Assembly (NCBI GenBank): GCA_023666275.1
Contig: JAMPCJ010000002.1
Coordinates: forward strand, 62,001 to 126,000
DNA length: 64,000 nt
Direction of reading: 5' to 3'
DNA from: Treponema brennaborense
Lineage (GTDB): Bacteria; Spirochaetota; Spirochaetia; Treponematales; Treponemataceae
Part shown: piece by piece, positions 15,915-21,853 of the stretch
Layout of the letters: every line of letters starts with the position of its first letter
Position numbering within the stretch: position 1 is the first letter of the stretch
Translations under genes and position numbers: made by a program
Notes under the pieces: model-generated
Seen by the model: only the letters and a program-made list of their open reading frames with translations
Told to the model about the DNA's origin: nothing
The model's database searches: none

Positions 15915-17168
15915 ATGGAAACAATTCAAAAGCAGGACAGCAGCGTTATCTATCTTGCAAAAGTGGGAGAACTGACGCTGAAAGGCTCGAATATCCGCGA
16001 ATTCGAACGCCGGCTCATTCAAAACGCCCGTTCGTATCTTGCGGAAACAGATGCCGTCATACAGCTGCGCGCGGGACGCATGTATATCGAATGCAGCGCG
16101 GAATTCTGCGACGCCGCGGAATACACGCTGCGGCACCTCATCGGAATTACCGGCTGGGCGCGCGCAATTTTATGCGAAAAAACAATCGATTCCATAAAAG
16201 CTGCGGTCATGCAGGAAGCGCTTGCCGCAAAAAACCGCGGCGCCGGAACATTCAAAATAGAAGCGCGCCGCTCGGACAAATCATTTGCGCTGTCATCGTA
16301 TGATATTTGCCGGCAGGCGGCGGAAGATGTCTTCGATCAAGGAATTCTCGCCGTAGATGTTCACAATCCGGATACGACGATAACCGTCGAAGTCCGCGAG
16401 CGGTGCTTTGTGTACGCCGATGCGCATAAAGGCTGCCGCGGACTGCCGCCGGGAACAGGCGGCAAAGGCGTGCTGCTGCTTTCCGGCGGACTGGACTCTC
16501 CCGTTGCCGGCTACCGCATGATGCGGCGGGGAATGCGCGTCGAATGCGTGTATTTTCACGCATATCCGTATACGTCAATGGAAGCGCAGGAAAAAGTCGA
16601 AAAACTTGCGCAAATCATTGCGCAGTACGGCATCGAAACGCATATCAACATCATTCCGTTTACCGCGGTGCAGATGCGCATCAAAGAAAAATGCCGCGCG
16701 GCAAATACAGGCTCAAAGGCAAATCCCGACGCTTTTACCACATTGATGCTGCGCGTCTGCATGATAAAAGCGGCAAATCTGCTTGCTTCCCGTATCCGCG
16801 CGCAGTGTCTTATCACGGGGGAAAGTCTCGGACAAGTTGCCAGCCAGACAATCGAAAACATGGCGGTTACGGAAAGCGCCTGCGATTTTCCGCTGCTGCG
16901 CCCGCTTGTCGGCATGGACAAAGAAGAAATCGTGGAAACCGCCAAATACATCGGCACGTATGAAACATCGATACTGCCATATGAAGACTGCTGCGTGCTT
17001 TTTTCGCCGAAGCATCCGGTGCTTCACGCAGACTTGGCAGAAGCAAAAGCGTTATACGAATCGCTGGAAGCAGATGCGCTTATCCAGGAAGCTTTCGATA
17101 AGCGTGAAATAAAATCGTTCTCCGCAAAAGAGTATGTAAACACGCATTTTCTTCAGGCACAAGAATAA
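15915..17168 (+). CDS. thiI: tRNA uracil 4-sulfurtransferase ThiI
   Basis: A 417-residue protein that adenylates and thiolates U8 of tRNAs; in some species it also supplies sulfur for thiazole. An N-terminal ferredoxin-like domain (LAKVGELTLKGSNIREFERR), a THUMP domain (to about residue 165) and a PP-loop ATPase domain with SGGLDSPVAGYRMMRRG (about 190-205) are in the expected order. The conserved EDCCVLFSPKHP segment near residue 357 carries the Cys of the thiolation site. There is no C-terminal rhodanese domain, as in most non-enterobacterial ThiI, so a separate persulfide donor is needed. The promoter is an extended -10 box 7 bases before ATG. Confidence 0.96.
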   Translation: METIQKQDSSVIYLAKVGELTLKGSNIREFERRLIQNARSYLAETDAVIQLRAGRMYIECSAEFCDAAEYTLRHLIGITGWARAILCEKTIDSIKAAVMQEALAAKNRGAGTFKIEARRSDKSFALSSYDICRQAAEDVFDQGILAVDVHNPDTTITVEVRERCFVYADAHKGCRGLPPGTGGKGVLLLSGGLDSPVAGYRMMRRGMRVECVYFHAYPYTSMEAQEKVEKLAQIIAQYGIETHINIIPFTAVQMRIKEKCRAANTGSKANPDAFTTLMLRVCMIKAANLLASRIRAQCLITGESLGQVASQTIENMAVTESACDFPLLRPLVGMDKEEIVETAKYIGTYETSILPYEDCCVLFSPKHPVLHADLAEAKALYESLEADALIQEAFDKREIKSFSAKEYVNTHFLQAQE

Positions 17169-17171
17169 ACG

Positions 17172-17225
17172 CGCCGCATTCCGAACATACGCGGCGATGA
17201 AAACCGCTGCCGCCGAAAATCGGCG
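17172..17225 (+). promoter_or_regulatory. Two-hairpin leader before the TIGR04076-type gene
   Basis: Two GC stems lie in the 79-base gap after thiI: CGCCGC (17172-17177) can pair with GCGGCG (17191-17196), and CGCCGA (17211-17216) with TCGGCG (17220-17225) across AAA. The second ends about 10 bases before the AGGAGG of the next gene. Neither is followed by a T-run, so they are not obvious terminators. They may protect the mRNA or control translation. Confidence 0.4.
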
Positions 17226-17247
17226 CGAACGCACAGGAGGAAACATT

Positions 17248-17640
17248 ATGAAACATAAAGTTAAAGTAACCGTTATTGACAAAAAGCTGTACCCGGAAAT
17301 TCAGCAGCAATTCTGCGCTAATCCCGCTGCAGGGAGCTGCTCATGCTACAATGTCGGGGACGAATTTGTCTTCTTTCGCGATGATGAACGTGATGATTTT
17401 TGGCATCAGGGACTGAACACCTTGACAAAAACGAACGGCAATCCCGACACAATTGCAGGCGGACCTCAAAAGCCCTTTTGTTCCGAAGCCTGGGACGCAA
17501 TCGCCCGCTATATATACGCAGGACTGCAGGGCGGTTCTATCATGAAAGGCTGGATGAAAGAAGAAAACACAATGATTGCCTGCTGCTCCGACGGCACACG
17601 TCCCGTAATATTCAAAATCGAAAGAATCGATTATGAATAA
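17248..17640 (+). CDS. TIGR04076 family protein
   Basis: A 130-residue small protein. The start is ATG 17248, supported by AGGAGG 9 bases upstream; the open frame before it is only leader. It shows the family features: an N-terminal KVKVTVIDKKL strand, a GSCSCYNVGDEF segment, then FCSEAWDAIARYIYAGLQGG and the C-terminal CCSDGTRPVIFKIERI. The function of TIGR04076 is not known. Several conserved Cys (CSC, a single Cys, then CC) suggest metal binding or redox chemistry; that is inference. It lies 79 bases downstream of thiI on the same strand and may be co-transcribed, although it has its own structured leader. Confidence 0.8.
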   Translation: MKHKVKVTVIDKKLYPEIQQQFCANPAAGSCSCYNVGDEFVFFRDDERDDFWHQGLNTLTKTNGNPDTIAGGPQKPFCSEAWDAIARYIYAGLQGGSIMKGWMKEENTMIACCSDGTRPVIFKIERIDYE

Positions 17641-17661
17641 CAGCATCAGTGAGTATATATT

Positions 17662-17687
17662 TCGGAATTCCTGCTTTCCGATGTTTT
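17662..17687 (+). terminator. Weak hairpin terminator after TIGR04076-type gene
   Basis: TCGGAA (17662-17667) pairs with TTCCGA (17676-17681) around an 8-base loop, followed by TGTTTTC. The stem is short and the T-run interrupted, so efficiency is doubtful. Confidence 0.35.
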
Positions 17688-17700
17688 CAAAAATACCGCA

Positions 17701-17717
17701 GTAAATTTTAAATTTAC
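17701..17717. repeat. A/T-rich palindrome
   Basis: GTAAATTTTAAATTTAC is a 7-bp inverted repeat around a 3-base centre. A second inverted repeat, TTTGCA around GTA, follows at 17724-17738. Both could be operator-like sites; neither has a T-run. Confidence 0.45.
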
Positions 17718-17797
17718 CGTCTATTTGCAGTATGCAAAATAGGCTGTTTGCGATATGCGCTGAAGGAGAACACCGCCGCTTAATCGGACAAATAAAA

Positions 17798-17898
17798 TTC
17801 GGCGTGTTTTCAAAAAAACTCGGCGAATAATTTAAAATATACGCCGTATAATTTTAAAAACTCGGCGAATAATTTTTTTTCTCGGCGTATATTTTCGC
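17798..17898. repeat. Helically phased CGGCG repeat array
   Basis: Five GC cores occur in A/T-rich DNA: CGGCG at 17800, 17821, 17863 and 17883, and its inverse CGCCG at 17842. Spacings are 21, 21, 21 and 20 bases, close to two helical turns. The best-matched pair shares CTCGGCGAATAATTT (17819 and 17861), and 17881 has CTCGGCGTATATTTT. Runs of T or A follow each core, so the DNA may be intrinsically bent. The array ends about 10 bases before the -35 box of the orphan promoter. The unit is too short and lacks the spacers needed for CRISPR. Confidence 0.7.
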
Positions 17899-17906
17899 TC
17901 GTTTCT

Positions 17907-17935
17907 TTGACTTTTTGCGAAAAGTGCGCTATACT
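17907..17935 (+). promoter_or_regulatory. Strong orphan sigma-70 promoter
   Basis: TTGACT (17907-17912), a 17-base spacer and TATACT (17930-17935) match consensus at 5 of 6 positions in each box with ideal spacing. Predicted start is near 17942 on the plus strand. No credible plus-strand gene follows; the transcript would run antisense into the 3' end of the outer-membrane protein gene at 18065. Confidence 0.6.
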
Positions 17936-18064
17936 GAAAAATCTTTTCCGATACCGCACGAGCCGCAAACCTTGCGCTTTGCGAAACTCGCACAAACGGA
18001 CGCACCGCAGCTGCCCGTTGTTTTCCGCACGGCTTTGCGGCGGCAGCCTGCAGCGCGCATTCTT

Positions 18065-19999
18065 TTATATGAACAGCTTGACGCCGAAAGACGCGATAAA
18101 GCCTTTTTCCGTGCCGTACTGCGGATCGTCGCTGTCGGCGCGGGTATAGTCGTGTTCGCTGTTGTCATTCGCGTAGGCATCGTCTTCAAGCACCGTGTAA
18201 TAGCTGTAGACATAGCCGATTTCTCCGTACAATGTCAGCGGAATGCGGAATTTTCTGAAAGAATACGACGCGCCGAGTTTTACCACATGGAACCATTGAT
18301 ACGCGCCGTCATGCAGAAAATATTTTTTCATGTCGTCGCGCCCTTCATTGTCAAGTTCCGAATACAAAGAACTGCCGCGGACAGCCTGACTTCCGTGGTC
18401 TGCCCCGCAGCGCGCAAACTGGTATTGGGCGTGAGCGCGGAAATTCGGCATCGGCATGGTTTCAAACAAAAAATTAAATTCATCGGAATTCGGCGGCATA
18501 TAATATCCGACCGGTTCTCCGTGATTCATGCAGGCTTCGGAAACATACTGCCCGAAATACCAAGGCGTATAATTTATCGAATGATGCGTATAGCAGTACG
18601 GTTCAATCTTTGTGTAGCGCGCGGAAAACGATGCAAACGGCAGGAACGGCACATTTACTTTTAACCCTGCCTGCAAGGCAAACATATCGCGCGTCGCATT
18701 AAAAATTTTTCCGCTGAGCATGCCGGTTGCAGTGCTGAATCCGTTCATTTCATCGAAATAACTGGAAAACCACACTCTGCCGAAGCCGGGGTACTGCACG
18801 CGGATATTGCCGAACAGGGCCAGATTGTCAAAATCGCCGACTTGGTTCTGATAAAAAACCATATTCACCAGCGGGAACATATAGCCGAGTTCAAACCGTT
18901 TCGGCCATACGCAGGTTGTTCCGCCGTCGACATGCAGATATTTGAAATCGGCTTCTATCATGGCAACGGAATACGCGTTTTGGAACATAGCCGACGGATC
19001 ATACGCCGTTACGCCGTAACTGCTTTCGTACAGCTCGTATTTATACGTATCTCCGTATACGTGTCCCGAAAGCGGCGCTTCGAGAATGCCCGTCATTGTC
19101 GCAATATTCAGCCATTTGAAAAGGCGCGCTTCCGCTTCAAAAGCGAGAAACGGTTTTGCGCGGCTGTTGACCACAAGCGAGGCGCCGTTGTCCATGGCAG
19201 CCCACTCGCGGTTTATGCGTCCGAGCCTGATTTGAATGCGGTTCTGCAATGCGGAATACGTAAACTCGCCCGTCATGCCGAAGCCGAACGCCAAGCCGTC
19301 GCACCAGTCTTCAAGCCCGTCGGCATCCATTGCGCCGGATTTATATACGACGCCGTCCCAGGGCTTGGTAAACGTAAACGGAAAAAACGCGCGGTTTCTG
19401 TATGTCTTGATCGTCTTTGTCGGTTTATTCGTATCGTACCAGAACTTTCCTATTTCATACGAGCCGTTCCAGTATGACAGCACGGAACGCACCGCAACGC
19501 CGAATAACGACAAATCGAACGAAAGCGAACTGCCTAAATCGCCGGCGGCGGAAAACATCGGCTTGAAATATCCGCCGAATTGTTTGTCGTCGCTGTATAT
19601 GCCGGCGGATATAAACGAATCGAGTTTTGCGGTAAGATCCATTGAAATGGGAACACCGCCGGACTGCGGAAAATACCAGCCGCCGCGCTGCCAGTCGAAA
19701 CCCGCTTTCCGCTCGAATTTTTCTGCCGCCTGCTTTAATATATCGATTTCTGCCGGCTTAAGCGCAGAAGTTCCGTCCGATTCTTCTTCCGCGGAAAGAA
19801 TTTCATTGACGGCACGTTTTATCGTTTGTTCGGAATAAGGGCGGGCGCCGGAAAGCGGCGAACACAAGCCGAGCATCTGCGCATGTTCTATCAGCATATA
19901 AATGTCGTCATCAATGTGAACAGACACATGTGTCTGCGCACATACCGAAGCGGCGCACAGCGCCAAAACAGCAAACAGACAAAACACCTTTTTTTTCAT
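18065..19999 (-). CDS. Predicted outer-membrane beta-barrel protein, Wzi-like
   Basis: A 644-residue protein with a signal peptide cleaved after residue 21 (CAASVCA/QTH). Residues about 25-80 have a helical IYMLIEHAQMLGL and ARPYSEQTIKRAVNEIL pattern, like the N-terminus of capsule-assembly Wzi-type proteins. The rest is rich in aromatic-flanked amphipathic strands typical of a large barrel and ends with Phe-Ile at the C-terminus (ASFGVKLFI), as outer-membrane barrels often do. Wzi anchors capsule in E. coli; treponemal relatives are uncharacterised. The start has AGGAAAGGGAT upstream. The next gene upstream (20105-21853) has the same architecture, so this is a tandem family pair. Confidence 0.65.
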   Translation of the reverse strand: MKKKVFCLFAVLALCAASVCAQTHVSVHIDDDIYMLIEHAQMLGLCSPLSGARPYSEQTIKRAVNEILSAEEESDGTSALKPAEIDILKQAAEKFERKAGFDWQRGGWYFPQSGGVPISMDLTAKLDSFISAGIYSDDKQFGGYFKPMFSAAGDLGSSLSFDLSLFGVAVRSVLSYWNGSYEIGKFWYDTNKPTKTIKTYRNRAFFPFTFTKPWDGVVYKSGAMDADGLEDWCDGLAFGFGMTGEFTYSALQNRIQIRLGRINREWAAMDNGASLVVNSRAKPFLAFEAEARLFKWLNIATMTGILEAPLSGHVYGDTYKYELYESSYGVTAYDPSAMFQNAYSVAMIEADFKYLHVDGGTTCVWPKRFELGYMFPLVNMVFYQNQVGDFDNLALFGNIRVQYPGFGRVWFSSYFDEMNGFSTATGMLSGKIFNATRDMFALQAGLKVNVPFLPFASFSARYTKIEPYCYTHHSINYTPWYFGQYVSEACMNHGEPVGYYMPPNSDEFNFLFETMPMPNFRAHAQYQFARCGADHGSQAVRGSSLYSELDNEGRDDMKKYFLHDGAYQWFHVVKLGASYSFRKFRIPLTLYGEIGYVYSYYTVLEDDAYANDNSEHDYTRADSDDPQYGTEKGFIASFGVKLFI

Positions 20000-20104: not shown

Positions 20105-21853
20105 CTAAAACAATTTGGCAGTCACGGAAAGAACAAACTCCGCGCCGTGCTGCACATTATCCTCTTCGTGCCCTGCGTTCAGCACAATTGTATATGCGCA
20201 CTGTCCCGAAAGCGAAATGCGTTCCGTAAAAAAATACGATCCTTTAAGCAGGATTCTGTGGCTGTATTCGGCAATTCCCGTGGGCGCCCAGGTTTCCCGC
20301 GCGATCGCGATAGCCTGTTCTTCCGTATATTTTCCCGTATCGTAGCCGACGACCGGATAATACGTATACTTGCCTTTATATATTTCCGTTTCGGCGGTAG
20401 ACGAGCCGTCTTTGTTATAAAACAAATTGAAGCCGTTTTCGCCGTTTGCGGCAAAACGGTACTGCATTTCGCAGGACCATTTTGCAGGCACTTCATACCC
20501 GAAGCGGAACTGCACCGCTATCGTATCCGGTCCGAACGGAGTTCCGATCCAGGAAGCAATCGGCATTTTCGTGTTTTCCAGATTATCGAAACGTTCCCGA
20601 TACAATGACCAGTTCGGATCATGCTTAATGTACAGCCAGGGCGTTGCGTACAAACCTTCGAGCCCCGTTATCCAGATGCCTTTTTTCGCAGACGGCAGCT
20701 TTACTTCGATTCCGAGCTGACCGCCGAGACTGTCCGGGAACATTTTTCCGCGCGGACCGTCCAATTCCGGCGGAATTTGTATTTCATTCTGGGCGTATAC
20801 GCCGTAAATCCGCACGTTTTTGCAGACAGCGTAATCGAACGTTACGCCGAAATACGCGCAGACGCGGGACTCCCCGTACGTTTTCGCTTCTCCGTCCGCC
20901 TGCCCCGCATTGTAATTGCCGTAGCCTTCCCAGGGCGACATCGAATGCATTATCATCAGCGGATTCATGAAGCGCAGTTCCAGCGGCGCATTCACATACG
21001 TGCCTTCGATAACGCCGAGCTGAAAGCGCTTGAACGGGCGCGCCTCGATGCGGTGCAGATACAAAAATTTATTCACATCGACTTCGATAACATCGCCGGT
21101 ATATCTGATGCGCGGAGAAAACAGCGTCAGTCTTGCATAGGCTTCCGTTTCGAAATTTTCGGACAGAAAAATGCTTCCCATCTGCGTGGAGCCGACAGAC
21201 ATTGCGCCGCGGCCGAGCTGAAAATTGATGCCTGCCCTGCCGTCCGCAAAACGCAGACCGGTGCTCAAATAAGCGGTGCGCGGCCACAGGAATTCCATTT
21301 GATCGAACGCCAGCGGAATATTGCAATGGTTTTTCGCATCGGAAACCGCCCAGTAGTTTTTTCCGAAAAAAACATCGGATTCTATGCACAGCACATCCGC
21401 GACGTTAAGAAATACCGGCGCGGAAATTACGTTGTCTTTATAAAAATAATTGAAAGACCAGTCTATGTCATCATTTGTTTTGAAATACAATTCCGGCGTT
21501 ACGGATACCGACATTCCGAGCGATATAACGCTCGAACGCAGAAATATGCCGTCTGTTTTGCGAAAATACGACGACACACGTTCATACTGCGCTTTTCCGG
21601 AATCCGTCAGCTTTTCATAATCGATTCCCATAAGATATGCTTTTAATTCCGCAACGGAAAGCGGCGCATTCTGGACAAACGATACTTCGCCCTGCTCAAG
21701 CGCGAGATACATCAGCGAATCATAGATCCAGTGTCCTGCGGGAACCAGTTTTTGGAAAGACAGCGGCAAAGCAGGCGAACGGGAATCCGCCGCGGACAAA
21801 AGCGCCGCCGCATATATCATAAAAACGCCGAAAACAACAGAGAACTTCTTCAT
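20105..21853 (-). CDS. Predicted outer-membrane beta-barrel protein, Wzi-like paralog
   Basis: A 582-residue protein with a signal peptide to about residue 22 (AAALLSAADS). After it comes a helical HWIYDSLMYLALEQGEV and SVAELKAYLMGIDYEKL region that parallels the start of the neighbouring 644-residue protein. A long barrel-like section ends in Leu-Phe (VLSVTAKLF). Proposed location is the outer membrane, and the function is unknown. It has its own promoter, TTGACA-17-TACGAT, with the -10 box 7 bases before ATG and no Shine-Dalgarno, so a leaderless mRNA is predicted. The 105-base gap to the downstream paralog holds a palindrome. Confidence 0.65.
   Translation of the reverse strand: MKKFSVVFGVFMIYAAALLSAADSRSPALPLSFQKLVPAGHWIYDSLMYLALEQGEVSFVQNAPLSVAELKAYLMGIDYEKLTDSGKAQYERVSSYFRKTDGIFLRSSVISLGMSVSVTPELYFKTNDDIDWSFNYFYKDNVISAPVFLNVADVLCIESDVFFGKNYWAVSDAKNHCNIPLAFDQMEFLWPRTAYLSTGLRFADGRAGINFQLGRGAMSVGSTQMGSIFLSENFETEAYARLTLFSPRIRYTGDVIEVDVNKFLYLHRIEARPFKRFQLGVIEGTYVNAPLELRFMNPLMIMHSMSPWEGYGNYNAGQADGEAKTYGESRVCAYFGVTFDYAVCKNVRIYGVYAQNEIQIPPELDGPRGKMFPDSLGGQLGIEVKLPSAKKGIWITGLEGLYATPWLYIKHDPNWSLYRERFDNLENTKMPIASWIGTPFGPDTIAVQFRFGYEVPAKWSCEMQYRFAANGENGFNLFYNKDGSSTAETEIYKGKYTYYPVVGYDTGKYTEEQAIAIARETWAPTGIAEYSHRILLKGSYFFTERISLSGQCAYTIVLNAGHEEDNVQHGAEFVLSVTAKLF

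Follow-up and report, generated by a model that had tools for sequence, protein, structure and literature searches.

The window analysed here, a stretch of 64,000 nucleotides (G000:C11:62001-126000; 47% G+C) from a genome of 2.35 Mb, carries on its plus strand a promoter-like sequence that faces the 3' end of a gene for an outer-membrane-type protein. This raises the question of whether the promoter serves a regulatory antisense RNA or came to lie there in some other way. The surrounding genes are convergent: the ThiI gene (15915-17168, plus strand) and, downstream of it, a TIGR04076-family gene (17197..17640, plus strand, assigned by a family match and probably starting at 17249) run towards two adjoining genes for outer-membrane-type proteins of 644 aa (18065..19999, minus strand) and 582 aa (20105-21853, minus strand). 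The promoter lies in the 424-bp intergenic stretch between the TIGR04076-family gene and the 644-aa gene. Neither outer-membrane-type protein gave a Pfam match, nor did the 644-aa protein give one in NCBIfam; relatives of the latter were found only in Treponema, and no viral contigs encoding relatives of either protein were found. Rfam returned only tRNAs, both in the window and in the repeat-array loci scanned (see below).

The promoter consists of a -35 box TTGACT (17907..17912, plus strand) and a -10 box TATACT (17930..17935, plus strand) separated by 17 nt, as originally predicted. These are sigma-70-type hexamers near consensus (10/12 matches) and place the predicted start at about 17942. 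The claim that this is among the best promoters in the window stood in one respect and not in another. The pattern TTGAC-N18-TATANT occurs at this site only in the 64 kb, against 0.08 expected; by the 10/12 count, however, the promoter is not exceptional, being tied with 15 other sites while one further site scores 11, and these 17 sites scoring at least 10/12 compare with about 12 expected in shuffles. At least one such site would fall by chance in the 424-bp intergenic stretch in about 9% of cases, so that the motif alone is weak evidence. Promoters of the TTGACTTTTTGC type also precede apparent genes in the same genome and in one relative (L048, L049, L032). At L032 (G069:C1:2183967, another genus), a promoter nearly identical to that of the window (TTGACTTTTTGCGGAAAATGCGCTATCAT) is found directly 5' of an apparent protein gene, with no array beside it. 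Downstream of the window promoter there are only two plus-strand candidates, ORFs of 80 aa (17907-18149) and 249 aa (17915-18664), which agrees with the view that no credible gene follows. The 249-aa ORF was rejected as a real gene because it lies antisense to the 644-aa gene and matched no Pfam or NCBIfam family.

The position and orientation of this orphan promoter were correctly described: it lies on the strand opposite the 644-aa gene and, from about 17942, reads into the 3' end of that gene, as expected for a cis-antisense RNA. We looked for features that would mark its product as a defined RNA. The predicted 5' part of the transcript (17942..18064, plus strand; 123 nt) is no more stably folded than shuffled sequence (z -0.24), and the same holds for a 309-nt stretch (z -0.44). 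No terminator was found on the plus strand near the predicted start, the first terminator-like site being a weak one at 18140, and the predicted RNA thus displays neither a defined 3' end nor a defined structure. A genome search with 17640-18100 matched the transcribed part nowhere else. Two homologues of this gene could be used for comparison (L052, L053), and neither has a 10-of-12 promoter at the matching place; conservation is a weak test here, since the homologues are few and only 37-42% identical. The proposal that the promoter makes a regulatory antisense or small RNA is therefore unsupported, and we regard such an RNA as possible but improbable.

The genome search did return partial matches elsewhere, one on contig C13 and one on contig C17, which brings the copies found in this genome to three, a count that rests on sequence searches and may be low. 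The repeated element, at 17796-17942, is an array of CGSCG units followed by the promoter. The array (17796..17895, plus strand) has about five units of ~21 nt with CGGCG/CGCCG cores, partly inverted to each other, and its left end is common to the C13 and C17 copies; a short junction (17896..17906, plus strand), also present in the C17 copy, joins it to the promoter. In the second copy (C13:234273-234418, minus strand), which is 85% identical to 17798-17942 of the window, both boxes and the 17-nt spacing are unchanged. The homology ends at the predicted start site, indicating that the promoter region was copied and not the RNA. The third copy (C17:105407-105474, minus strand) retains the left end but is missing two units from its middle; it stops after TTGACTTTTTGCG, so that no -10 box is present. 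The window array folds better than shuffles (z -3.25, with a long loop) and the C13 array still better (z -4.74); in the C17 copy no fold was clearly above shuffles (z -0.88). A GC-rich stem between A and U tracts, as in an intrinsic terminator, is present in the C13 array and weaker in that of the window. The presence in the same genome of a second copy with identical boxes and spacing may be taken as independent support for a motif that exceeds chance. Two other identities of the locus were rejected: a CRISPR array, because successive units are separated by nothing but A/T tracts, with no unique spacers, and the template of a diversity-generating retroelement, because a genome search with 17640-18200 matched only the array/promoter part elsewhere. 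No phage or plasmid records matching the cassette were found.

The C13 copy has a different downstream context. Its promoter is followed within ~60 nt by a small hairpin and then an 11-bp terminator, AGGCGGAGCACATCACGGTGTTCCGCTT, with a U run, past which lies a tRNA that has promoter-like boxes of its own. Given a strong intrinsic terminator so close to the promoter, this copy could yield an RNA of ~65-75 nt. The same terminator, 91% identical, also occurs on C10 and C12, in each case behind a lipoprotein-family gene; a paralogue of these two genes is located just upstream of the C13 array. As the terminator is shared with lipoprotein genes, the C13 short RNA may have arisen when the cassette with its promoter came to lie ahead of a terminator that was already there, and the idea of C13 as a clean sRNA gene was dropped. 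The hairpin, GGCGGAGCACATC..GTGTTCCGC followed by a T run, is a duplicated terminator found at G000:C13:234204-234279 (minus strand), G000:C10:49257 and G000:C12:276341.

Arrays of the same design were recovered from about 13 other genomes of the family, taken to be the Treponemataceae from the Treponema relatives of the 644-aa protein, and mostly of one genus (17 matching genomes minus four in which, on inspection, the match was only promoter-like or within coding sequence), with about 7-8 arrays each in G120 and G265 and several in others. Those of G120 and G265 form two near-perfect hairpins with A and U tracts on either side (z -6.4 to -8.3), a predicted fold which is the form of bidirectional terminators. 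Convergent genes flank 10 of the 26 distinct arrays that have a called gene on both sides, and many arrays lie at most 50 nt from a stop codon, the neighbours being called roughly, by a simple ORF rule; other gene arrangements occur too, so that position alone is no proof of a terminator role. A TTGAC or TTGGC box is present at most ~30 nt from the right edge in 7 of the 8 locus families of G120 and G265 (counting L061), sometimes with a -10 box after it (e.g. G120:C45, G120:C52, G265:C9). Shared descent of the copies explains part of this pattern. The array as a general promoter element was dropped, because TTGAC-like neighbours are confined to this genome and G120/G265 and stand beside none of the 13 arrays from other genomes. 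At L055 and L058 (G120:C45 and C52) and L059 (G265:C9), the array is combined with a TTGACA-17-TATNNN promoter and with downstream sequence that is alike among the three loci, two of which are in the same genome; this combination is a candidate non-coding RNA family. At L039/L070 (G120:C3) and L069 (G265:C2), a short repeat around GTAGTGCCTATACACGAAGTCC is present in several neighbouring copies, some of them inverted, ~150-250 nt past the array. Literature searches, with subscription papers mostly outside their reach, found nothing relevant on such repeats in Treponema. A more speculative reading, which we consider rather unlikely, is that the Treponemataceae carry dispersed elements of ~100 bp made of two terminator-like palindrome pairs, which in one subset end on the right with an outward-facing -35 box; at sites with a suitably spaced -10 box (the window, C13, G120:C45 and C52, G265:C9), the element might act as an insulated promoter that stops read-through behind it and begins a short or antisense RNA ahead.

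For the promoter in the window, we favour an orphan promoter that is carried by the cassette and whose antisense read-through is incidental, with a probability of about 0.6. The promoter boxes, the convergent context, the three copies, the end of homology at the start site and the lack of a nearby terminator can be read directly from the DNA. The element at 17796-17942 would then represent a small cassette that has been duplicated, in which a palindromic repeat array precedes an outward-facing sigma-70-type promoter. In RNA, the array would probably be a weak bidirectional terminator between the two convergent genes, and the promoter would probably fire from about 17942. The resulting untargeted RNA would extend, in antisense, across the 3' UTR of the outer-membrane gene and into its 3' end, with Rho, collision or a weak hairpin eventually stopping transcription. 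Since the promoter rides on a short duplicated repeat, any antisense RNA is more probably a side effect than a dedicated regulator, and we infer that it has no dedicated function. In Treponema pallidum, antisense transcription has been reported in 44% of annotated regions, much of it from tail-to-tail gene pairs (PMC12223175), so that such an RNA needs no special role. Two observations go against an incidental origin. Both boxes were kept while the rest of the cassette diverged by ~15%, which hints at selection, neutral retention of both being estimated at ~12% of cases (0.84 to the 12th power). Moreover, the resemblance of the C13 copy to a short-RNA gene could mean that the cassette is a dedicated sRNA promoter.

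The alternatives differ in whether the boxes are used and for what. Promoter-like sequence arising by chance, with unused boxes, would fit the 17 sites of like quality in the window against about 12 expected and the 9% figure for the intergenic stretch, but we consider it unlikely, since the C13 copy preserves both boxes and their spacing exactly and similar promoters precede apparent genes. That same preservation, together with a good promoter of fitting position and orientation, speaks for a regulatory cis-antisense RNA, which would tune the surface protein by pairing with the outer-membrane mRNA at its 3' end or by causing transcriptional collision. This we judge improbable: the transcribed part is single-copy, with neither terminator nor structure beyond shuffles, and the homologues, though few and distant, lack an equivalent promoter. 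Finally, the cassette may normally drive a terminated RNA of ~65-75 nt, as the hairpin and the 11-bp terminator with U run behind the C13 promoter suggest, the window copy having lost the RNA body and terminator. The window holds no trace of the C13 RNA, however, and the recurrence of the C13 terminator after two lipoprotein-family genes suggests that it may be an independent module, which makes a remnant of an sRNA gene very improbable.

If the repeat does join a terminator to a portable -35 box or promoter, it would offer a natural route for seeding new transcripts, antisense ones included, into intergenic sites of spirochaete genomes, for which few transcripts have been mapped. For this single outer-membrane gene, the antisense proposal is of minor importance unless an RNA is demonstrated.

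Among known systems, the locus resembles orphan or spurious sigma-70 promoters that give antisense transcripts (compare the tail-to-tail antisense RNA of T. pallidum, PMC12223175), in its sigma-70-type boxes, the absence of a downstream gene and its orientation towards the 3' end of an opposite gene. It differs from an isolated chance motif in being part of a multi-copy repeat. The repeat resembles REP/MITE-like dispersed palindromic repeats and intrinsic terminators, which are likewise short, multi-copy, intergenic and palindromic and often lie just past stop codons; several intergenic copies per genome were indeed found. The present family differs from these in its tandem ~21-nt units of partly alternating orientation and, in a subset (this genome, G120 and G265), in the TTGAC -35-like box at the right edge. 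Hybrid promoters can form at the ends of insertion sequences that carry an outward-facing -35 box, and the arrays are comparable to such ends in that the edge of the element provides the -35 box, with a -10 box present at some sites only.
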